Assembly (NCBI RefSeq): GCF_000743705.1
Contig: NZ_JQEZ01000002.1
Span: forward strand, 616,862 to 680,861
From: Ruegeria halocynthiae
Lineage (GTDB): Bacteria; Pseudomonadota; Alphaproteobacteria; Rhodobacterales; Rhodobacteraceae
Reading direction: 5' to 3'
DNA: 64,000 nucleotides
The notes below the pieces were generated by a model that saw only the letters and a program-made list of their open reading frames with translations, was not told the origin of the DNA and did not search any database. Of this stretch, positions 5,242-15,059 are shown piece after piece. Position numbers and translations under genes: made by a program. Each line of letters begins with the position of its first letter. Position 1 is the stretch's first letter.

Positions 5242-5471
5242 GTGGGGCCTGTTAGTGGTTGGATCAATTTTCGGCCAGAAGATCGTGCCGATTGGCATTC
5301 TGCAAGCGTTAAACGTGGGGCGACACATCAATCGGTTGACTTAAAGGGGCTACGCAATGGCCGGGATGCGGACGAACCCGACCTTTGCGATTGGACAAGG
5401 CATGTCCGCTCAACGCCTGTCTCCGACCTTGGCGTCCGGATGTCTGAATGCGAGCTTGATCGATTTTGCGC

Positions 5472-6407
5472 TCAGGTTTCCCAAGGTGGCTTTGCACCAA
5501 TCTCCGCGATCAGAAAGTCCATGAACACTCGAACTTTGGGAGATAACACGTTCGACTTGGGATAGATCAGCCACAAGACGTTGTCTTCGGCGGCCTCAAA
5601 GTTCGGTAAAATACGGGTCAATCGCCCTGCCTTCAGGTGATCCTGCACGCTCCATAGGGCGTTCAAGGAAATCCCGGCCCCGGCCAGCGTGGCGCGGACC
5701 TGACTTTGGCCGTCGTCGATAATCAATTGACCCTTGGCCGATGCGGGATCGAAAACGGCTTTTTCGCCCTCCAATCCTGTCAGCGAGCGCGGTTGGCGGT
5801 TTTGGAAAGCGATCAGGTGGTGGTCCGTCAAATCGGCAGGTGTTTCGGGTGTGCCGTAGGTCTCAAGATAACGCGGCGCGGCACAAAGAATACGGTGATC
5901 ATCAGCCAGTTTGCGGCCTTTCAGGCTGGTGTCGACAAGTGGTGCGTTCCTGAGCGCCAGGTCGTAGCTTCCTTCGATCAGGTCGAACTGCACATCCGAC
6001 AGGCGCAGATCGAGTGTGAGGTCGGGGTGCTGTTGTAGAAATTTCGGCAGGATCGGTGCAATGTAGAGCTGTGCAAAGCTGCTTGGTGCAGCGAAGCGCA
6101 ACGTGCCCTTGATCGTTGTCGTCTGCTTGCCCAAGGCCGCAAGCGCTGCCTCTTCCTGTGCGATGATCTCGCGGGCGAAAGGCAGGAAATCGGCTCCTTC
6201 AATCGACAGCGACACTTTGCGCGTCGTGCGGTGCAAAAGCTCGGAACCCAAGGCCTGCTCCAGTTTGGCAAGTTTTGCGCTCGAAACGGCTGGAGCCATA
6301 CCCAACGCGCGCCCCGCAGCGCTGATGTTCAACATTTCCGCCGCACTGACAAACAGCCGGAGCGCGTCTGTATCAAGGCTTATTATATCCAATACCCGAA
6401 TTATCAA
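5472..6407 (-). CDS. LysR-family transcriptional regulator, probable controller of the adjacent redox cassette
   Basis: The 311-residue product has the LysR layout: an N-terminal helix-turn-helix at about 12-70 (LFVSAAEMLNISAAGRALGMAPA, shortened here to the helix pair) and a periplasmic-binding-protein-like effector domain from about 95 to the end. Only TTG starts are available, at 6407 or 6392; neither has a clear ribosome site. It is divergent from the five-gene cassette starting at 6491, the usual arrangement for a LysR protein and its target. The effector is unknown and may be a substrate of the cassette. Confidence 0.85.
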   Translation of the reverse strand: MIIRVLDIISLDTDALRLFVSAAEMLNISAAGRALGMAPAVSSAKLAKLEQALGSELLHRTTRKVSLSIEGADFLPFAREIIAQEEAALAALGKQTTTIKGTLRFAAPSSFAQLYIAPILPKFLQQHPDLTLDLRLSDVQFDLIEGSYDLALRNAPLVDTSLKGRKLADDHRILCAAPRYLETYGTPETPADLTDHHLIAFQNRQPRSLTGLEGEKAVFDPASAKGQLIIDDGQSQVRATLAGAGISLNALWSVQDHLKAGRLTRILPNFEAAEDNVLWLIYPKSNVLSPKVRVFMDFLIAEIGAKPPWET

Positions 6408-6439
6408 TCCATTATTGCGCTGTTTATCTGCAAATGGAT
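6407..6439. promoter_or_regulatory. Inverted repeat between LysR gene and cassette
   Basis: ATCCATT (6407-6413) is repeated inverted as AATGGAT (6433-6439) with 19 bases between, in the AT-rich divergent region. The position suits a regulator-binding site, but the spacing is longer than the usual LysR T-N11-A core, so the assignment is tentative. Confidence 0.3.
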
Positions 6440-6490
6440 CGAGGTTAAATGCCTTTCATCGACGCAACAGAACTCGGGCAGGAGGTGCAA

Positions 6491-7267
6491 ATGACACGGA
6501 CGGCCACAGTCAACTACCATGTTCACAAGCCCCACCGACAAGCCTTTGAACTTGATGCAGGAGGCATCGCAGGTAACCTGATTTCCCCCGAACTGGCCCC
6601 GAGATCCGTTGAGCTTACAGACAACCGGATGGCGGCCATGTCAGTCGCATTCGCGTCTGACGCGGTAGAATTCACTTCGCTGACAACGCAGGTCCGGGAC
6701 TTTTCAGGTGACAGCTGGAAACAGGCATATGATGCAGAGCTGACGGCGATGCTTCTGGAAAAGTTGGGTGCGCACGAGGTTGTGGTTTTTGATCACACTG
6801 TTCGGGTGGACGATCCCGATGCGACGCGCAAACCCGCACGCAATGTCCATAGTGACTACAGCAAGGACGGGGCCGAGCAGCGCCTTGTCGATCTGTTGGG
6901 GGTCCAGACGGCGGCTGAATGGGCGCAGGGTCACTATGCCTTTGTCAATGTGTGGCGTCCGGTGGAGCATCCGATCAATTCAGCACCCCTTGGGTTTGTC
7001 CGCCCGTCATCCGTTGATCCGGCCGATTGGCTTCTGCTGGATCTGATCTATTCTGACCGCAAAGGACAAATCTTGGGGTTGGCGGCAAACCCGAACCATG
7101 AGTGGGTTTACCAGTCCAAGATGACGCCGGGCGAAGTGGTAGTTTTCAACATCTACGACAATCAGGGGCTGCCGTCGATTGCACATAGTGCGCTCGATAT
7201 GGTCGAGGGTCCAAACGTGACCACCCCTCGCAAAAGCATCGAGAGCCGCACTTTAGTGCGTTATTGA
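6491..7267 (+). CDS. CmcJ/NvfI-type Fe(II)/2-oxoglutarate-like oxidoreductase
   Basis: The 258-residue product resembles the CmcJ/NvfI/AsaB group of hydroxylases and desaturases, best known from cephamycin and fungal metabolite pathways. Visible features are VFDHTVR, then RNVHSDYSKDG with the His-x-Asp pair expected of an iron-binding facial triad, a later His (SIAHSALDM), and an Arg-rich end (PRKSIESR) suited to an oxoglutarate carboxylate. The start at ATG 6491 is fixed by AGGAGG at 6480-6485; an upstream in-frame ATG at 6449 has no such site. It is the first gene of the cassette. The substrate is unknown. Confidence 0.78.
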   Translation: MTRTATVNYHVHKPHRQAFELDAGGIAGNLISPELAPRSVELTDNRMAAMSVAFASDAVEFTSLTTQVRDFSGDSWKQAYDAELTAMLLEKLGAHEVVVFDHTVRVDDPDATRKPARNVHSDYSKDGAEQRLVDLLGVQTAAEWAQGHYAFVNVWRPVEHPINSAPLGFVRPSSVDPADWLLLDLIYSDRKGQILGLAANPNHEWVYQSKMTPGEVVVFNIYDNQGLPSIAHSALDMVEGPNVTTPRKSIESRTLVRY

Positions 7268-7280
7268 AGGGGTGTAGAAA

Positions 7281-8246
7281 ATGTTCGACAAAATACAGTC
7301 GACTGAGTTTGCCCAGATCAACGTGGCCTATAACCGGGTGTTTCGTCCGGGGCGGCTGAGCGTTGGTCTTGTGTTGCCGCTGGAGGCTTACGCGGTCGGC
7401 GCAGAGCCCTCCCTGCGGGGTCATCTGGATGCGGCTCGGAAAGCTGAAGACTTTGGGTTTGCAGCCCTCTGGCTGCGCGACGTGCCCTTCAATGTTCCAA
7501 GCTTTGGGGATCCAGGACAGGTTTTTGATCCATTTGTCTATCTGGGTGCGCTGGCAACGGTAACGGACCGGATCGCGCTTGGAACGTCGAGTGTCATCCT
7601 TCCCTTGCGCCACCCCGCCCATGTGGCCAAGACGGCGGCAACGGCGGACGTGCTCTCGGGCGGGCGGCTACTGTTGGGCGTTGCCTCGGGTGATCGGCCT
7701 GAGGAGTACCCGGCGATGAACCAGAGCTATGATGACCGCGGGGCCCGTTTCCGCGACAGCATGGACTACATCCGCGCGGTCGGTTCGGACTATCCTACGC
7801 ATGAAGGCGCGCAGGGCATATTGTCTGGCGGGATTGACCTGTTACCAAAGCCGCATGGCACGCGCCTGCCGATGCTCATCACCGGCGGCAGCCAGCAAAC
7901 GCCCGATTGGGTGGCGCAGAATGGGGATGGTTGGATGACCTATCCGCGCAGCGCGGCAGCTCAGGGGCGGGTCATCGTGGATTACCGCAGGCGAGTGAAG
8001 GCGGCGGGCCAGCCCGAAAAGCCTGTCATGCAATCGCTTTATGTTGATATCGTTGCTGATCCCGCCGCACCTCCGCGCCCGATCCACCTTGGGTTTCAGT
8101 CCGGCGTCGACTTCCTACGCGGCTATCTGCGCGAGATTGAAACGCTCGGCGTCAATCACGTGGCCCTGAATCTCAGGTTCAATCAAGCCCCCATCGATAC
8201 AACCCTCGAACATCTGGCGGACACTGTGCTGCCTGACTTTTGCTAA
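7281..8246 (+). CDS. Luciferase-like flavin-dependent oxidoreductase (BA3436 type)
   Basis: A 321-residue LLM-class protein, an (alpha/beta)8 barrel using reduced flavin. The motifs GHLDAARKAEDFGFAALWLRD (shortened), LGTSSVILPLRHP and GGRLLLGVASGDRPEEYP agree with the BA3436-type subgroup, whose members have no settled function. Family members are monooxygenases or F420/FMN reductases on small organic substrates. It follows the oxygenase gene by 13 bases and precedes the SDR by 12, so co-transcription is likely. Its N-terminus, before the barrel, is about 25 residues longer than in the minimal family. Confidence 0.8.
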   Translation: MFDKIQSTEFAQINVAYNRVFRPGRLSVGLVLPLEAYAVGAEPSLRGHLDAARKAEDFGFAALWLRDVPFNVPSFGDPGQVFDPFVYLGALATVTDRIALGTSSVILPLRHPAHVAKTAATADVLSGGRLLLGVASGDRPEEYPAMNQSYDDRGARFRDSMDYIRAVGSDYPTHEGAQGILSGGIDLLPKPHGTRLPMLITGGSQQTPDWVAQNGDGWMTYPRSAAAQGRVIVDYRRRVKAAGQPEKPVMQSLYVDIVADPAAPPRPIHLGFQSGVDFLRGYLREIETLGVNHVALNLRFNQAPIDTTLEHLADTVLPDFC

Positions 8247-8258
8247 AGGATCAGACCA

Positions 8259-9047
8259 ATGACAAAGACCATTCTCATTACAGGTTCAACCGACGGCATT
8301 GGCTTGTTGACGGCAAAGAAACTGGCCGCGGATGGGCACCAAGTGCTGTTGCATGGACGCAGTGTAACCAAATTGGAGCGCGCGGCCGCCGAGGTCGGCG
8401 GCAACGTCGAAACCTATGCCGCTGAATTGAGCGATCTGTCCGCGGTTCGAAAACTGGCCGAAAACATACGCGCAAAACATGACCAACTGGATGTGTTGAT
8501 CAACAACGCTGGTGTGCTGAAAGCCCCACAAACCGTGCTCGAGAACGGGCAGGACATCCGCTTTGTCGTGAACACGCTCGCACCCTATCTGCTGACCGAA
8601 TTGCTGCTGCCGATCATGCCCACGGATGGGCGCGTCGTAAACCTATCGTCAGCGGCGCAGGCCCCGGTCAACATCCGGGCCATGCAGGGCAACATCCCGC
8701 TGGCGGATATGGATGCCTATGCGCAAAGCAAGCTGGCGATCACCATCTGGACCCGGGAATGGGCCAAAGCGCTAACCGATGCGCCGATGATGGTCGCTGT
8801 AAATCCCGGATCGCTACTTGCCTCGAAGATGGTGCAAGAAGGCTTTGGCGTCTCAGGAAACGACATGAACATCGGCGCGGATATCCTGATTGATGCGGCC
8901 TTAGGTGAGCGGTTCGCTGATGCGTCCGGCGCCTATTTCGACAATGACAGCGGGGCTTTCGCTGATCCGCATGCCGCAGCGCTCGACAAAGACCACGCCA
9001 CCAATGTCATGACCACTATCAGAACCTTGATCAACCAGACCGGCTGA
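8259..9047 (+). CDS. Short-chain dehydrogenase/reductase
   Basis: A classical SDR of 262 residues. It has the cofactor loop TGSTDGIG near 8-15, an Arg after strand 2 (HGRS) that suggests NADP(H) preference, the NNAG motif near 84-87, a catalytic Ser in VNLSSAAQ, and the Tyr-x-x-x-Lys pair in YAQSK. It should oxidise or reduce an alcohol/carbonyl in the cytoplasm. Within the cassette it could act on the product of the oxygenase or flavin enzyme. That is an inference from position. Confidence 0.85.
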
Positions 9048-9139
9048 CCCAAGCGGTGCGGTCGCGCCATACACATCCACCTTTACCTCCTACCACCCCC
9101 TCGCGCGTGTCGCGTCGAGGCCCAAGAAAGGACTGCCTG

Positions 9140-9985
9140 ATGAAATACAAGAACTTTCAAACCTTTGACGTAGCCGTTGAAAACGGCATCGCCACCGTGA
9201 CATTCAACTTCGGCTCTGTGAACGTTCAAGGCCAGGAAATGCTGGCCGATCTCAACAGTCTGGCTATGCGGTTAGAGCGAGATCGCGTCACCAAGGTCGT
9301 GATCTTTCAGTCTGCCAACCCGGAAATCTGGGTCTGCCACTACGACACTGACTTGCTCAAGGACATGTCGACCGAGGCGATATCCCGGCAGGACGCACAG
9401 CTTCTCGACCTGCAATCGGTTTGCGAGCGGATCAGCAAAGTGCCGCAAGCCACCATCGCAAAGCTGGAAGGGTTTGCACGCGGCGGCGGGCACGAATTGG
9501 CGTTGGCGCTCGACATGCGCTTTGCCGCGCGGGGCAAGTACAAGTTCATGCAGATGGAGGTCGGCATGGGAATACTGCCCTGCGGCGGCGGTGCCTCGCG
9601 CATGGCGCGTCAGACCGGTCTTGGCAAAGCGCTTGAGATCATTCTGAGCGCGCAAGACTATGACGCGGATGACGCCGAACGTCTGGGCACCATCAACAAG
9701 GCGCTAGAGCCGGACGTGATTGGCCCGTATGTGACCGCGCTGGCCGAACGGATCGCCCAGTTCCCGGCAGATGCGATCAATGCCTGCAAGCAGATGGTCT
9801 ATGAATCCATCGACAAACCCATTGATGAGGCACTGAAGGCCGAAGCCTATTGGCTCTATCAGGCCACCAGCAAAACCCCGGCCGTCAAACGGTTCGCCAT
9901 CGCGGATGAACAGGGTTTGGAACACGACATCGAAAACCAGCGCAAGTGGAGCGAACTGGTGATGCAGGTTCAGGACATCAACTGA
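9140..9985 (+). CDS. Enoyl-CoA hydratase/isomerase (crotonase) family protein
   Basis: A 281-residue crotonase-fold protein. The oxyanion-hole region reads LEGFARGGGHELALALD, and an aromatic/Gly-rich segment follows (GMGILPCGGGASRMAR). The usual second-site Glu of hydratases is replaced here by Pro/Cys, so the reaction may be hydration, isomerisation, C-C cleavage or a non-CoA reaction. I chose ATG 9140 (preceded by AAGAAAGGA) over an upstream frame start at 9056, whose 28 residues look like non-coding leader. It is the fourth cassette gene, 92 bases after the SDR. Confidence 0.78.
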   Translation: MKYKNFQTFDVAVENGIATVTFNFGSVNVQGQEMLADLNSLAMRLERDRVTKVVIFQSANPEIWVCHYDTDLLKDMSTEAISRQDAQLLDLQSVCERISKVPQATIAKLEGFARGGGHELALALDMRFAARGKYKFMQMEVGMGILPCGGGASRMARQTGLGKALEIILSAQDYDADDAERLGTINKALEPDVIGPYVTALAERIAQFPADAINACKQMVYESIDKPIDEALKAEAYWLYQATSKTPAVKRFAIADEQGLEHDIENQRKWSELVMQVQDIN

Positions 9986-10046
9986 CCCCCAAGGAAAGGT
10001 CACGTCAGCGCGTCCGCTTGCGTGACATCAGAAAAGGAATATCCCA

Positions 10047-11033
10047 ATGAAAGCAACGGTTCTGAATACATATGGACCAGACGCGCCGTTCGAGCTTGCA
10101 GAAATGCCCGACCCGGTCGCAACACCCGGGCATGTGGTGGTCAAGGTCGCCGCCGTCAGCGTCAATACCGTCGACACTATGATCCGAAGCATGGGCGCAG
10201 ACCTACCGCTATCCCCCGCCTTGCCTGCCGTTTTGGGCATGGACTTTGCTGGCACAGTTGTCGCTTTGGGTGACGGTGTGACAGATTTCGCGGTGGGCGA
10301 TGAAGTCTATGGCTGCGCCGGTGGTTTGATGGACCTGCCCGGTTCGCTGGCAGAGTACATCAACGCAGACGCGCGCCTGATTGCTCACAAACCCAAAACG
10401 CTGAGCATGCGCGAAGCCGCAGCGCTACCCCTCGTCGGCATCACCGCCTACGAAGGGCTGACCCGTGCCGGTGTCGACGAGGGGCAGACCGTACTGGTTC
10501 AGGGCGGCGCTGGTGGCGTTGGCCACGTCGCCGTGCAAATCGCCCGCCATCTTGGCGCGACGGTCTCCGCAACAGGTCGCGGTGCCAACCAGATGTCTCT
10601 GATCGAGGGGCTGGGCGCGCGATCCTTGGATTTCACAACGCAAAAGGTCGAAGACTATGTGGCCGAGCACACGGGTGGTACAGGCTTCGATGTGGTGTTT
10701 GACAGTGTCGGCGGGTCGAACATGACGAACTCTTTCAACGCGGCGAAGCTGAATGGCCATGTCACCTCGACAGTAGCGATGGTCGAGATCGATTTGACAC
10801 CTGCGCATTTCAAAGGTCTGTCTCTGCATGTCGTTTTCATGCTGATCCCGATGATGCACAATGTCGGACGGCAGAGCCATGGTGACATCCTCAGGACACT
10901 GGCAGATCTGGCGGATGACGGCGCGCTTAAACCGATTGTTTACGAACAGACGTTCGGGCGGGCCGATGTCGAGGCAGCCTATGCCCAGCTTACGAATGGA
11001 TCTGCGGTCGGAAAAGTCGTAGTGGAGTTGTGA
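10047..11033 (+). CDS. Zinc-independent MDR oxidoreductase (quinone-oxidoreductase-like)
   Basis: The 328-residue product has the medium-chain dehydrogenase plan: a GroES-like N-terminal half with GMDFAGTVVALGDGV and a Rossmann half with the nucleotide loop GGAGGVGHVAVQIA near 155-168. The catalytic zinc ligands of alcohol dehydrogenases are absent, as in NADPH quinone reductases and 2-alkenal reductases. It would reduce activated double bonds or quinones with NADPH. It is the last gene of the LysR-linked cassette; an inverted repeat lies 16 bases past its stop. Confidence 0.83.
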   Translation: MKATVLNTYGPDAPFELAEMPDPVATPGHVVVKVAAVSVNTVDTMIRSMGADLPLSPALPAVLGMDFAGTVVALGDGVTDFAVGDEVYGCAGGLMDLPGSLAEYINADARLIAHKPKTLSMREAAALPLVGITAYEGLTRAGVDEGQTVLVQGGAGGVGHVAVQIARHLGATVSATGRGANQMSLIEGLGARSLDFTTQKVEDYVAEHTGGTGFDVVFDSVGGSNMTNSFNAAKLNGHVTSTVAMVEIDLTPAHFKGLSLHVVFMLIPMMHNVGRQSHGDILRTLADLADDGALKPIVYEQTFGRADVEAAYAQLTNGSAVGKVVVEL

Positions 11034-11382
11034 TAATTTTCGGCTGAGATTGGTGCGCGTAAAATGACCTTGCGCACCAACTCAGTTTGAGCTGCAACGA
11101 TGTCGACTATCAGTGCTTAGCTGACCTTCGAGCAAATTGCAGCACCGGTAACTCTGGGCTCAGAGCGGTCATCTGACATATTCAGTAGGACATTGACCGG
11201 GTTCCAACGGCCCCAAAGCCTGCTGTGCGGACGGAGCAGCCGTTCGACGCCAGTGTTCGAACGACAGCTTCGCAGCAGTACTACCAAATCAAACTCTTGC
11301 CGCTTGCTGCTCAAAAATACGCTAGCGTGATTGTCGACTGCGAAGAAAGAGGTGATAGTTAGTCGAGACTAGGGAGGGTTTG
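11034..11382. other. 349-base gap without a convincing gene
   Basis: Apart from the hairpin at 11050-11080 I see no gene here. A 65-codon minus-strand frame (11117-11314) has no ribosome site or family likeness. The last 40 bases hold the ribosome site of the next gene. Base composition becomes more AT-rich toward its right end. Confidence 0.5.
11050..11080 (+). terminator. Hairpin at the end of the redox cassette
   Basis: TTGGTGCGC (11050-11058) pairs perfectly with GCGCACCAA (11072-11080) across a 13-base loop. No T-run follows, so it could be a Rho-dependent end, an RNA-protecting hairpin or a binding site. Confidence 0.45.
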
Positions 11383-12069
11383 ATGACGTTAAATCTGATT
11401 GATTGGGGGAAAAGGGCCATTTCGCTTCTTCCTGATATGACAGAAGACGATGATCTCTATGATTTCACCGCAAAAATGTTTCCGGAGATTACAAAAGCCG
11501 TTGAGTTTTCGGAACTTTCTATCCGACGCGGCATACACGAATATATGGATACTTTACGCGTTGATTACCTTCAAATATCTGCCACGAAAGACACCTATCA
11601 AGTGCTCGGACTTGCGATTTTGGCCGCTGCCTTTCAAGCAGAGGACGTTTGGATCACTTTAACGAACGAAAAGACAGATTTTAAGTTTCTGTCGATTTCC
11701 GGCTCTGACATGGCAAGTTGTGGCGGGGTACGTGGCAGAGTGGCCCTGAAGGAATGGAGCTATACGCCGCGCGAGCGAACACGACACCCATTTTTCGCCG
11801 ATAAGCTGGCTGAGTATCCGGCATTTTGCCTCGAATGCAGTGATGAAGATGCTCCGCTACCTGACGTATGGGACTCCCGTGATACGGTTGTGGGGTTTGG
11901 AAGGCTTGAGCCGTCCCTAGAACTTGCGGGAGTGCTGCTGGACATGGCGAGGCCAAGTAACTCCCGGAACGAATTCGTGCTTGAGGGTCCCGCTGGCTTC
12001 CAAGGCGTTGACGCGCTTAGCGCCGAGGTAAGGTTTTGGCTACCCGGTGCAGCTGGATATGATCTCTGA
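11383..12069 (+). CDS. Orphan hypothetical protein, AT-rich
   Basis: A 228-residue soluble, acidic protein with no motif I recognise. There is no signal peptide or membrane span. It contains many Trp and aromatic residues and a Cys pair (PAFCLECSDED). Its base and codon use are visibly more AT-rich than its neighbours, and it stands alone between the cassette hairpin and DUF1491, which suggests acquisition. ATG 11383 is preceded by GGGAGGG; a TTG one codon earlier is the other option. It could be an immunity-type or phage-related protein, but nothing in the sequence proves this. Confidence 0.65.
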   Translation: MTLNLIDWGKRAISLLPDMTEDDDLYDFTAKMFPEITKAVEFSELSIRRGIHEYMDTLRVDYLQISATKDTYQVLGLAILAAAFQAEDVWITLTNEKTDFKFLSISGSDMASCGGVRGRVALKEWSYTPRERTRHPFFADKLAEYPAFCLECSDEDAPLPDVWDSRDTVVGFGRLEPSLELAGVLLDMARPSNSRNEFVLEGPAGFQGVDALSAEVRFWLPGAAGYDL

Positions 12070-12205
12070 TGGATTGCTCAGGAACAACAAGCCCATAAGT
12101 CCTGTACAATTTTCTCGTCTAATTGGTCTTCATTCTCAAGAGCCGCCATTCGCTGTCTTGCAGAAGTTTGTCATTTTGGGCTCAAAGTTGACAATCGTTG
12201 AGCGG

Positions 12206-12535
12206 CTACTCTAACCCCTCTTCGCCCAAAAGATGCCGCCCTTGCCGGTCTTCGACCTCTAACACCCAGAGGTCGGGGTCAAAGCTGCGCTGGCGTTGGA
12301 TGGCCTCGTCTACGTCCAGTTCCAAACCGCTGGACAGCTCGACCCATTTGCGGTCACCGCTCATCAGATCAAAACTGCGTTGGAACGCCACCGCCTGACC
12401 GTCCAGTGTATTCAGCTTGACCAGAACAGCACCGGCTGTGTCGTCGCCGTGAGACACGACAAAAGCCGGAATTTCCTGAAACCGCAGCCGCGCCAGATAA
12501 GCATGAACCCAGAATTCCGCTGTCAGACGACCCAT
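12206..12535 (-). CDS. DUF1491 family protein
   Basis: The 109-residue protein matches the DUF1491 pattern of alphaproteobacteria: an N-terminal TAEFWVHAYLARL segment, then a GDDTAGAVLVKLN strand pair and a C-terminal DPDLWVLEVEDRQGRHLL. No function is established for the family. It lies 55 bases downstream of era on the same strand, its normal neighbour, and the two are probably co-transcribed. A perfect palindrome sits in the gap. Confidence 0.85.
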   Translation of the reverse strand: MGRLTAEFWVHAYLARLRFQEIPAFVVSHGDDTAGAVLVKLNTLDGQAVAFQRSFDLMSGDRKWVELSSGLELDVDEAIQRQRSFDPDLWVLEVEDRQGRHLLGEEGLE

Positions 12536-12558
12536 CGCGCCGCCCTTTCCATTGGGCG

Positions 12559-12583
12559 TAAGAATTTTCGACGAAAATTCTTA
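12559..12583. repeat. Perfect 25-base palindrome between era and DUF1491
   Basis: TAAGAATTTTCG (12559-12570), one central base, then its exact inverse complement CGAAAATTCTTA (12572-12583). The AT-rich core in a GC-rich intergenic gap suggests either a dispersed palindromic repeat or an RNA hairpin between two co-transcribed genes. Only one copy was seen in this window. Confidence 0.6.
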
Positions 12584-12590
12584 TCCTGCG

Positions 12591-13499
12591 TCATGCGTTG
12601 CCGTCTTTGAAATCCAGACCCATTTCCGAATAGCGCTCCGATTCCTCCAGCCAGTTGGGCCGGACTTTCACTTGCAGGAACAGGTGAATCTTGCGGTCCA
12701 GAAACTCTTCCAACTCAGCCCGCGCCGCCTGGCTGACGGCCTTGATCGTCTCACCCTTCTTGCCCAGAACGATACCTTTGTGGCCGTCGCGCATGACATA
12801 GATGATCTGATCGATTTTGGCCGAGCCGTCCTTGCGTTCTTCCCAGTTTTCGGTTTCGACCGTCAGCTGATAGGGCAGTTCCTGATGCAAGCGCAGCGTC
12901 AGTTTCTCGCGCGTCATTTCGGCCGCGATCATGCGCAGGGGCAGATCGGCGATCTGATCTTCAGGATACAGCCAGGGGCTTTCGGGCAGTTTGCCCGCAA
13001 GCCACTTGCGCAGGTCTTCGACGCCATAGCCCTTTTCAGCCGAGATCATGAAGGTTTCGGCAAATTGGTAACGCGTGTTCAGTTTGCTGGTCAGCGCCAG
13101 CAGAACCTCGGACTGCACCTTGTCGATCTTGTTGATCGCCAGCGCGACGGTACGGCCCTGCCCGATCTCATCCAGACCTTCCAGGATGCGTTCGACCCCT
13201 TCGGTAATGCCGCGATGCGCCTCGACCATCAGGACAACGACATCCGCATCGGCGGCCCCACCCCAAGCGGCGGCGACCATGGCGCGGTCCAGGCGGCGGC
13301 GGGGTTTGAACAGGCCGGGTGTGTCGACAAAGACCAGTTGCGCGTCACCCTCCATCGCCACGCCGCGGATGCGGGTGCGGGTGGTTTGCACCTTATGCGT
13401 CACGATCGAGACTTTGGCCCCGACCATACGGTTCAAAAGGGTGGATTTGCCTGCGTTGGGCTCTCCGATCAGGGCGATAAATCCGGCGCGTGTGGTCAT
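12591..13499 (-). CDS. era: GTPase Era, 16S rRNA maturation and 30S assembly
   Basis: Era binds near the 3' end of 16S rRNA and acts as a small-subunit assembly checkpoint. The 302-residue product has G1 GEPNAGKS at 12-19, G3 DTPG, G4 NKID and a C-terminal KH domain with the GKKGETIK loop near 240. Length is typical. In related genomes it directly follows rnc. Here a multicopper oxidase and a membrane protein lie between them, so era has its own promoter region at 13500-13658, divergent from the oxidase. Confidence 0.97.
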   Translation of the reverse strand: MTTRAGFIALIGEPNAGKSTLLNRMVGAKVSIVTHKVQTTRTRIRGVAMEGDAQLVFVDTPGLFKPRRRLDRAMVAAAWGGAADADVVVLMVEAHRGITEGVERILEGLDEIGQGRTVALAINKIDKVQSEVLLALTSKLNTRYQFAETFMISAEKGYGVEDLRKWLAGKLPESPWLYPEDQIADLPLRMIAAEMTREKLTLRLHQELPYQLTVETENWEERKDGSAKIDQIIYVMRDGHKGIVLGKKGETIKAVSQAARAELEEFLDRKIHLFLQVKVRPNWLEESERYSEMGLDFKDGNA

Positions 13500-13658
13500 G
13501 TGTCCTGCGATCCTGTTTGCAAGTGCGCACCCCTATAGCAGAAAGACCCCGCGGGCCAGAGGGATTTGTCGCATTGCAGCCATGCGATTGCGGTGGCAGG
13601 ACTGAAAGCGCGCCACGCCAAATCCAGCCAGGCGATCAGTATTGCAATGAGGCAGGAC

Positions 13659-15059
13659 ATGAACCGTCGTGAGTTTCTTTTGGGCAGCGCCGCCGCCACC
13701 GGCGCGGCAGGGTTGGGTGGTTACAGCATGGCAGCCAACCCGCAGGAACTGGTCATCCAACCGGCCCGTTTCGCCTTGCGCGATCAGGTAACGACCGGAA
13801 TGGTCAGCCTGTCACCAGACGCGCCGCCGCCGGTTTTGTACGGCAGGCAGGGCGAAATCATGCGCCTGCCGGTGCGCAATACCCTGCCCGAGTATACCGC
13901 GATGCACTGGCACGGGCTGCGCATTCCCAATGAGATGGACGGGGTGCCTTATCTGACCCAGATGCCAATCGGGTCGGACGAGGTATTTGGATACACGTTC
14001 ACCCCCCCGGACGCGGGCACATATTGGTATCACCCCCATTGCATGACGATGGAACAGATGGCCCATGGCCTGACCGGCGTGATGGTGATTGCCGAAGCCG
14101 AAGACCCCGGCTTCGACGGCGAACAGGTGATCAACCTGCGCGATTTCCGACTGGATGATGAGGATCAGTTTCTGCCCGCCTATACCCAACGTGGCGCGGC
14201 ACGGGCGGGCACCTTCGGCAATGTTCAGACCGCCAACTGGCTGGACGCGCCGATTTATGATCACACCGCAGGCGGGCTGGTGCGGCTGCGGGTGGTGAAC
14301 TCGGACACGACCCGTATTTACAAGTTGCATCTGCAAGGGGCCGAGGCCCGGATCATCGCATGGGACGGCCATCCGGTAGAAATTGACCTCGCCATGCCCA
14401 GCGCAGATGCACCGCTGCTGGTGGGGCCGGGTCAGCGGGTGGATTTTGCCGTTGCCATGCCGGGGGTGGAAGGGCAGACCGTTGATCTGATGGCGAAACT
14501 GCCCGGTCAGCCACATCGCGCCATGGCGCAGTTGCGGGCCACAGGCACATCATCGGCACGCGATCTGCGCGAGCTGCGCCCGCTGGCCCCGAACCCGGTG
14601 GCCAAACCCGATCTGGCCAATGCCGAGTTGCACGAATTTGTCTTTGGCTGGACACCCGAGGGGGGTGAACCTATCAACGGCTTCTGCGGCTCGCTGGGGT
14701 ATAATTTCTGGTCGATCAACCGCAAACCCTGGCCCGGAGATGCCGCGCAGGGGCTTGGGCCGCTGGCGACGCTGGAAATGGGCAAAAGCTATGTTCTGCG
14801 GTTGCGCAATGAATCCCCGAACCTGCATCCGATCCACCTGCACGGGCTGGCCTTTGTGCCGCTGAAATCGAACCAGCGTACTTTACCGCCTCTGATGACC
14901 GATACGATGCTGCTGTTGAAGGATGAGGTGGTCGAGATCGCTCTGGTCGCGGACAATCCCGGCGACTGGGCCTTTCATTGCCACGTGATCGAGCATCAAA
15001 AGACCGGGCTGACCGGGTTTATCCGGGTGGTTAGAGGGGGTAAGCGAACCGTCCTGTAA
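13659..15059 (+). CDS. Tat-exported multicopper oxidase, laccase-like axial Leu
   Basis: A 466-residue multicopper oxidase with three cupredoxin domains. All four copper-binding motifs are present: HWHG, YWYHPHC, HPIHLHG and FHCHVIEH. The residue five after the last His, the axial position of the type 1 copper, is Leu (HQKTGL), as in laccases and unlike the Met of CueO. The N-terminus carries a twin-arginine signal (NRREFLLG and an Ala/Gly-rich stretch), so it folds with copper before export to the periplasm. I start at ATG 13659; 13647 is also possible. No Met-rich insert of the CueO type is seen. The substrate could be Cu(I), phenols or metals. Confidence 0.9.
   Translation: MNRREFLLGSAAATGAAGLGGYSMAANPQELVIQPARFALRDQVTTGMVSLSPDAPPPVLYGRQGEIMRLPVRNTLPEYTAMHWHGLRIPNEMDGVPYLTQMPIGSDEVFGYTFTPPDAGTYWYHPHCMTMEQMAHGLTGVMVIAEAEDPGFDGEQVINLRDFRLDDEDQFLPAYTQRGAARAGTFGNVQTANWLDAPIYDHTAGGLVRLRVVNSDTTRIYKLHLQGAEARIIAWDGHPVEIDLAMPSADAPLLVGPGQRVDFAVAMPGVEGQTVDLMAKLPGQPHRAMAQLRATGTSSARDLRELRPLAPNPVAKPDLANAELHEFVFGWTPEGGEPINGFCGSLGYNFWSINRKPWPGDAAQGLGPLATLEMGKSYVLRLRNESPNLHPIHLHGLAFVPLKSNQRTLPPLMTDTMLLLKDEVVEIALVADNPGDWAFHCHVIEHQKTGLTGFIRVVRGGKRTVL

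Follow-up and report, generated by a model that had tools for sequence, protein, structure and literature searches.

What task is shared by a LysR-family regulatory gene and the five enzyme genes facing it was the question raised by a 64,000-nucleotide stretch of the Ruegeria halocynthiae genome (contig NZ_JQEZ01000002.1, hereafter the window). A sequence-only reading had described this cluster, at positions 5472–11033, as a LysR gene divergent from five head-to-tail genes for a CmcJ/NvfI-type oxygenase (CmcJ below), a BA3436-type flavin oxidoreductase (here LLM, luciferase-like monooxygenase), a short-chain dehydrogenase/reductase (SDR), a crotonase, and a medium-chain dehydrogenase/reductase (MDR). 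Profile searches confirmed all six families, and an open reading frame (ORF) search of the window returned the same order and strands, with two starts corrected (6491 and 9140). We read the cluster, with a probability of roughly one half, as a redox cassette that is horizontally mobile and LysR-inducible and serves the peripheral catabolism or detoxification of a carbonyl, unsaturated, or aromatic compound. Detoxification or peripheral catabolism is the likelier half of what had been proposed from the sequence. The features are the following:

5472–6392, minus strand: LysR-family regulator oriented away from the enzyme genes; its start is uncertain
6393–6490, no strand: divergent intergenic region with blocks conserved in the aligned loci; putative operator/promoter
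6491–7267, plus strand: CmcJ/NvfI-family Fe(II)/2-oxoglutarate (2OG) oxygenase, 258 aa (NF041278; candidate ligands H120, D122, H232; R247, R253, R257)
7281–8246, plus strand: LLM-class oxidoreductase, TIGR03571 (BA3436) subfamily, profile above cut-off
8259–9047, plus strand: classical SDR with conserved glycine-rich motif, NNAG, Ser, Tyr, and Lys
9140–9985, plus strand: crotonase/enoyl-CoA hydratase family protein, 281 aa, unusually conserved, E119 and E140 kept
10047–11033, plus strand: MDR, PIG3/quinone-oxidoreductase-like, below the PIG3 subfamily cut-off

Relatives of the cluster were gathered from a GTDB contig scan (15 loci), a plasmid search (23 records), and 394 genomes of the family; loci and genomes are cited by L and G numbers. 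A CmcJ match at E ≤ 1e-20 was present in 17 of the 394 family genomes, 15 of which, the window's own included, carried a nearly full-length protein at ≥60% identity. The complete six-gene order recurred at seven other loci (L019, L020, L021, L023, L024, L029, and L033), six from Ruegeria and one from Leisingera, with one (SCSIO 43209) on a plasmid; the set does co-occur beside a LysR gene, and with this recurrence the order exceeds chance. Phaeobacter and Roseibium plasmids carry partial sets, and so, lacking CmcJ, does Tropicibacter, again on a plasmid. The flanking ORFs mostly differ between loci. The exceptions are L019 and L024, which are alike on both flanks; L021 and L022, which have a block of five ORFs in common, but on one side of the cassette in one locus and on the other side in the other; and some further pairs with one or two flanking ORFs in common. 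All six genes are under purifying selection, with ratios of nonsynonymous to synonymous substitution (dN/dS) of 0.04–0.14 against five Ruegeria/Leisingera loci. Degenerate copies were also found: L018 retains only a LysR fragment, CmcJ, and LLM, lacking the SDR, crotonase, and MDR genes, while the MDR of L022 is partial and the CmcJ of L023 contains one internal stop. At two further loci, CmcJ is only a fragment (L051:9001–9324 and L093:7544–7867), with LysR, LLM, and SDR remaining.

In the window, the cassette is situated between recO and era, and together with a 229-aa ORF that matched no family it separates the two genes (5331–12591). recO, era, and rnc lie together, with recO at most 0.7 kb from era, in all five genomes of other genera checked (L166–L170). 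In a genome of the same genus (G043), era and recO are on different contigs and the era contig extends some 13 kb beyond era in the direction of recO; the recO–era interval is therefore variable in this genus. The immediate neighbours of the cassette are recO and the 229-aa ORF, and no CoA ligase or transporter was identified among them, in agreement with what had been stated for the cluster. Little can be concluded from the missing CoA ligase, because in Vibrio fortis, and apparently in Persicobacter, the crotonase gene is likewise found on its own next to a regulator gene. The segment 11034–12580 has a G+C content of 0.52, against 0.60 for the window. Between era and rnc, a multicopper-oxidase-like gene (below curated cut-offs) occupies positions 13566–15059, and it is also there in G043.

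The content of related clusters was examined from the SDR gene outwards (tblastn matches above 90 bits, neighbouring matches within 4 kb), which gave 49 SDR places in 46 of the 394 family genomes; some of these loci are cut by contig ends, and the Fisher tests applied to them ignore kinship. LysR was the commonest linked gene (36 places), followed by LLM (29), CmcJ (16, one of them the fragment in L051), MDR (11), and zADH2 (11). The crotonase (ECH) was linked at only 7 places, a probable second 2OG oxygenase that we call OG2 at 5, an AcoR-like regulator at 5, a nitroreductase at 4, and E1a at 4, and six places had nothing of the set nearby. CmcJ and LLM do not form an obligate pair (both at 9 places, CmcJ alone at 7, LLM alone at 20, neither at 13; p = 1).

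A second count started from 30 CmcJ loci. Set aside were L023 for its internal stop, L031 because it is partial, L036 as part of the record that also holds L034, the fragments in L051 and L093, and distant matches below 250 bits (L050, L052–L056). LLM accompanied CmcJ at 20 of them and OG2 at 6 (L034 with a fragment only), with neither at 4 and both at none. On a quick CmcJ tree of these 30 rows, in which 12 of 27 inner branches had support below 80, the minimum number of presence/absence changes was 7 for the crotonase, 6 for MDR, and 4 for the LLM/OG2/none state. The argument that LLM and OG2 perform the same reaction because they exclude one another is weakened, since one exchange suffices: a single branch of the tree (support 62) can set the OG2 loci apart from the rest. 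Considering whole genomes, 17 bear CmcJ, namely the 15 with a nearly full-length gene, G200 (a fragment), and G724 (another family); a close crotonase is found in 8 of them and a close MDR in 7, and in G134 the crotonase and MDR genes are on contig C8 and CmcJ on C1.

LLM, SDR, MDR, and crotonase are each found without CmcJ at some loci. For example, plasmid clusters of Tropicibacter oceani and Catenovulum adriaticum have related LysR, LLM, SDR, and MDR genes in the same order at 50–68% identity; in contrast to the window, they have neither CmcJ nor crotonase, and they carry extra genes, a second MDR before LLM in the former and a DUF4437 protein in the latter. A nitroreductase gene lies near the cassette in L025, L026, L037, L051, L093, L139, and L156 (the profile was run on L025 only). 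Gene content favours a kit with partly linked modules over a single fixed pathway, though the case is not decisive.

For such a mobile, inducible cassette, the LysR protein would sense a small molecule, or its product, bind the divergent region with its conserved blocks, and switch on the divergent operon, whose five genes would be co-transcribed. CmcJ would act as an Fe/2OG oxygenase and, with LLM, would oxygenate or oxidise an exogenous compound. LLM, SDR, and MDR would oxidise or reduce, the SDR and MDR enzymes adjusting carbonyl and alkene oxidation states, and the crotonase would possibly hydrate or cleave an activated intermediate. Seen from the SDR gene, LysR and LLM are the commonest partners, and CmcJ, crotonase, MDR, OG2, nitroreductase, and a zinc-ADH-like MDR are modules that come and go. 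Members of the MDR/quinone oxidoreductase, nitroreductase, and SDR families typically deal with carbonyls, quinones, and electrophiles. Each part of the cluster comes from a known family. Neither the combination nor its modular behaviour was described in the titles and starts of abstracts of the papers listed, a weak negative from a search with partial coverage and most subscription papers outside it. If this reading is true, the cluster would represent a redox kit that recurs in Rhodobacterales, often on plasmids, and would provide a function for bacterial CmcJ/NvfI-type oxygenases and TIGR03571 oxidoreductases.

Several observations weigh against it. Some modules do not vary freely: among the 49 SDR places, CmcJ goes with the crotonase (6/16 versus 1/33, Fisher p 0.003) and with OG2 (5/16 versus 0/33, p 0.002) and avoids zADH2 (0/16 versus 11/33, p 0.009). 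The fixed order at eight loci, the window included, suggests a specific job there, and the conservation of the crotonase exceeds what a generalist enzyme would require. Base composition gave no sign of recent import, the G+C content of the cassette being 0.579 with 11 of 117 windows of this size lower. To our knowledge, Fe/2OG oxygenases are not usual detoxification enzymes. Finally, a thiamine pyrophosphate (TPP)/lipoyl dehydrogenase encoded in or near the cluster in a few other genera points to carbon-chain catabolism.

Among the alternatives, a linear catabolic route devoted to a single natural compound, for instance of algal or coral origin, is possible though doubtful. CmcJ and/or LLM would oxygenate the compound, the SDR would oxidise it, the crotonase would hydrate it or cleave a C–C bond, and the MDR would reduce the product, so that loci with fewer genes would be reduced or degenerate versions. 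The constant order, the short gaps between genes, and the link between CmcJ and crotonase all favour such a pathway, as do the degenerate copies (L018, L022, L023, L051, and L093) and the finding that the same 3 of 385 genomes of the class have both a close CmcJ (≥59%) and a crotonase at E ≤ 1e-80 (one of the class-level searches scored no more than six top candidates in each genome). This has to be set against the at least 7 and 6 changes of crotonase and MDR on the CmcJ tree, the absence of CmcJ from 33 of the 49 SDR places, the presence of a close crotonase or MDR in fewer than half of the CmcJ-bearing genomes, and the solitary crotonase genes next to a regulator gene in Vibrio and, apparently, in Persicobacter. 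One ordered oxidation–rearrangement–reduction route run by five dedicated enzymes, as envisaged by the sequence-only reading, is not supported, given this variation in gene content and the modules without CmcJ; what speaks for it is that CmcJ and crotonase are linked more often than expected.

The crotonase is the oddest part of the cassette. In 23 sequences from three bacterial classes, 140 of its 281 residues are invariant, compared with 63/258 in CmcJ (n = 30), 85/321 in LLM (n = 43), 110/328 in MDR (n = 21), and 45/262 in SDR (n = 67), a comparison that is indicative because the sets differ in size and diversity. Its dN to the five Ruegeria/Leisingera loci is 0.022–0.034, with 0.057–0.124 for the other five genes. 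E119 and E140, invariant in the 23 sequences, align with glutamates of 5z7r and are presumably at the positions of the two active-site glutamates of enoyl-CoA hydratases. A Vibrio fortis plasmid carries a crotonase that is 85% identical, alone beside a divergent LysR gene (L088:8897–10846); recent transfer to or from Vibrio was rejected as the source of this identity because synonymous sites are saturated (proportion of synonymous differences, pS, 0.93). The same plasmid carries an OG2 gene elsewhere. In Persicobacter, a 74% identical crotonase is apparently alone, following a gene that reads, by eye, like an AraC-type regulator. The crotonases linked to CmcJ are not all close, those of L028 and L162 being 66% and 68% identical. 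The conservation implies a precise function, and the crotonase, which can be assayed alone, is a good single target.

A further reading, which we consider unlikely, is an undescribed pathway in which LLM and the unrelated OG2 would be interchangeable for the same oxygenation beside CmcJ, the resulting ketol or diketone would pass via the SDR to a strongly constrained crotonase of new specificity, and a TPP/lipoyl dehydrogenase would finish the route in some genera. The probable assignment of OG2 to the 2OG oxygenases is based on 58–62% identical proteins on two Vibrio plasmids, annotated as 2OG-Fe(II) oxygenases; its Pfam matches were below cut-offs, with none for the L030 protein, and H216, D218, H269, and R279 (L043 numbering) are invariant in eight sequences. 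The fold model of OG2 was poor (mean predicted local distance difference test score, pLDDT, 37.6) and was not used.

The TPP/lipoyl dehydrogenase is also central to an acyloin or ketone catabolism, rather improbable in our view, in which the oxygenases and the SDR would make a vicinal hydroxyketone or diketone, an acetoin-dehydrogenase-like TPP/lipoyl complex would cleave it to acyl-CoA where present, and the crotonase and MDR would process the unsaturated acyl part. Genes for a sigma-54 regulator, E1a, E1b, E2, and LplA are situated in or near the cluster at L035, L039, L045, and L049 (the regulator match in L049 being only 31%), a likeness to acetoin dehydrogenase (Aco) systems that is seconded by the annotation of L035, by DhaR as the best NCBIfam match of the sigma-54 regulator, and by the acetoin dehydrogenase E2 model as the sole match of a 77-aa lipoyl protein (39 bits versus a cut-off of 307). 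The differences from Aco systems are considerable: the regulator, E1, and E2 proteins are below all listed cut-offs, the lipoyl domain and the E2 catalytic part are on separate genes in L035, E1a is linked at just 4 of the 49 SDR places, one of these (L048) at only 35% identity, and the window's genome has no close E1a ortholog, its only match at E ≤ 1e-40 being 37% identical (G000:C2:93754–94701). The split E2 lies at L035:17766–18676, where the genes for the lipoyl domain (77 aa) and the catalytic part (226 aa) are found beside a lipoyl-ligase-like gene.

Regarding CmcJ, the closest solved relatives, by sequence and by model, are NvfI and CTB9, members of the same family (7de2, phmmer E 7.9e-14; 7eus, profile E 3.3e-21). 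NvfI is the novofumigatonin endoperoxidase, while the PDB titles of CTB9 give a 2OG-dependent dioxygenase, in one entry with pre-cercosporin. The ten best Foldseek matches of the CmcJ model were of this group (E 2.6e-16 to 3.6e-15, TM 0.74–0.78), and from this model, of moderate quality (mean pLDDT 70.5), CmcJ is predicted to have a 2OG oxygenase fold. The profile alignment with 7eus aligned the His-x-Asp and distal His of CmcJ; in contrast, identity in the fold alignments is 21–25%, and the context of NvfI and CTB9 is fungal biosynthesis. A small biosynthetic operon that tailors a secondary metabolite or a signal, which these enzymes of fungal metabolite pathways might call to mind, is improbable, as a search of the six genes and those directly next to them identified no scaffold-making enzyme, transferase, or exporter, and relatives keep different gene subsets. 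D122, H232, R247, R253, and R257 of CmcJ are invariant in 30 sequences and H120 in all but one, and the six are all invariant in a second set (n = 13); we take the His-x-Asp...His residues as the iron-ligand pattern and an arginine as 2OG-binding. A CmcJ/NvfI-type match at E ≤ 1e-10 is present in 75 of 385 genomes sampled in the class.

The family assignments were obtained with Pfam profiles and with NCBIfam, for which at most 25 matches per protein were listed. The LysR protein matched PF03466 (132 bits) and PF00126 (52 bits); the domains and the orientation of a LysR-type regulator with a divergent operon are both present. CmcJ scored 253.1 bits with NF041278 (cut-off 80), a model whose namesake is presumably the CmcJ of cephamycin biosynthesis; that protein was compared via the family model, and, as a difference, no beta-lactam genes were identified in the window cluster. 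The LLM protein scored 381.2 bits with TIGR03571 (cut-off 303.9), its gene being the only one above this cut-off in the window's genome, and it matched PDB 2b81 at E 4.5e-69; 2b81 is named only as a luciferase-like monooxygenase, whereas the window protein belongs to a LysR/SDR cassette. The SDR (PF00106, 105 bits) keeps T8, G9, D12, G13, G15, N82, N83, A84, G85, S131, Y154, and K158 in all 67 sequences, which we read as the cofactor motif, NNAG, and Ser-Tyr-Lys of classical SDRs. The crotonase matched PF00378 at 103 bits and was below cut-off in all 25 listed of 69 matches to specific curated models (e.g., PaaF, FadB, and oxepin-CoA hydrolase), the best at 123 bits. The MDR family was confirmed by PF08240 and PF13602, with scores below the cut-offs for the PIG3-type quinone reductase (TIGR02824, 174.7 versus 296.8 bits) and for AcuI acrylyl-CoA reductase (NF051456, 67.4 versus 440). 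A known pathway was rejected on the curated models: among the NCBIfam matches listed, only CmcJ/NvfI and TIGR03571 pass, both subfamily models, in line with the earlier remark that the set matches no known route.

With the corrected starts, the gaps between the five enzyme genes are 13, 12, 92, and 61 bp, and each gene is preceded by a Shine–Dalgarno-like stretch. The CmcJ start is most likely the ATG at 6491 and not 6449, with AGGAGG just upstream and an annotated relative of 777 bp in Ruegeria sp. SCSIO 43209; that of the crotonase is the ATG at 9140 and not the GTG at 9056, with AAGGA upstream and an annotated relative of 846 bp. The LysR start, ATG in all eight relatives checked, is ATA here (codon 6381–6383, minus strand), and in-frame TTG codons at 6390–6392 and 6405–6407, both upstream of it, offer alternatives; expression of the regulator may consequently differ from that in relatives. 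In the divergent intergenic region, the blocks CCGAATTAT, GTTTAT, and TAAAT are identical in all nine aligned loci, which are close relatives. A scan found promoter-like and terminator-like sites no more often than in shuffles (1 versus a mean of 2.6, and 4 versus 5.8, respectively), and the sole plus-strand terminator-like site was located at 8216–8233, near the end of the LLM gene.

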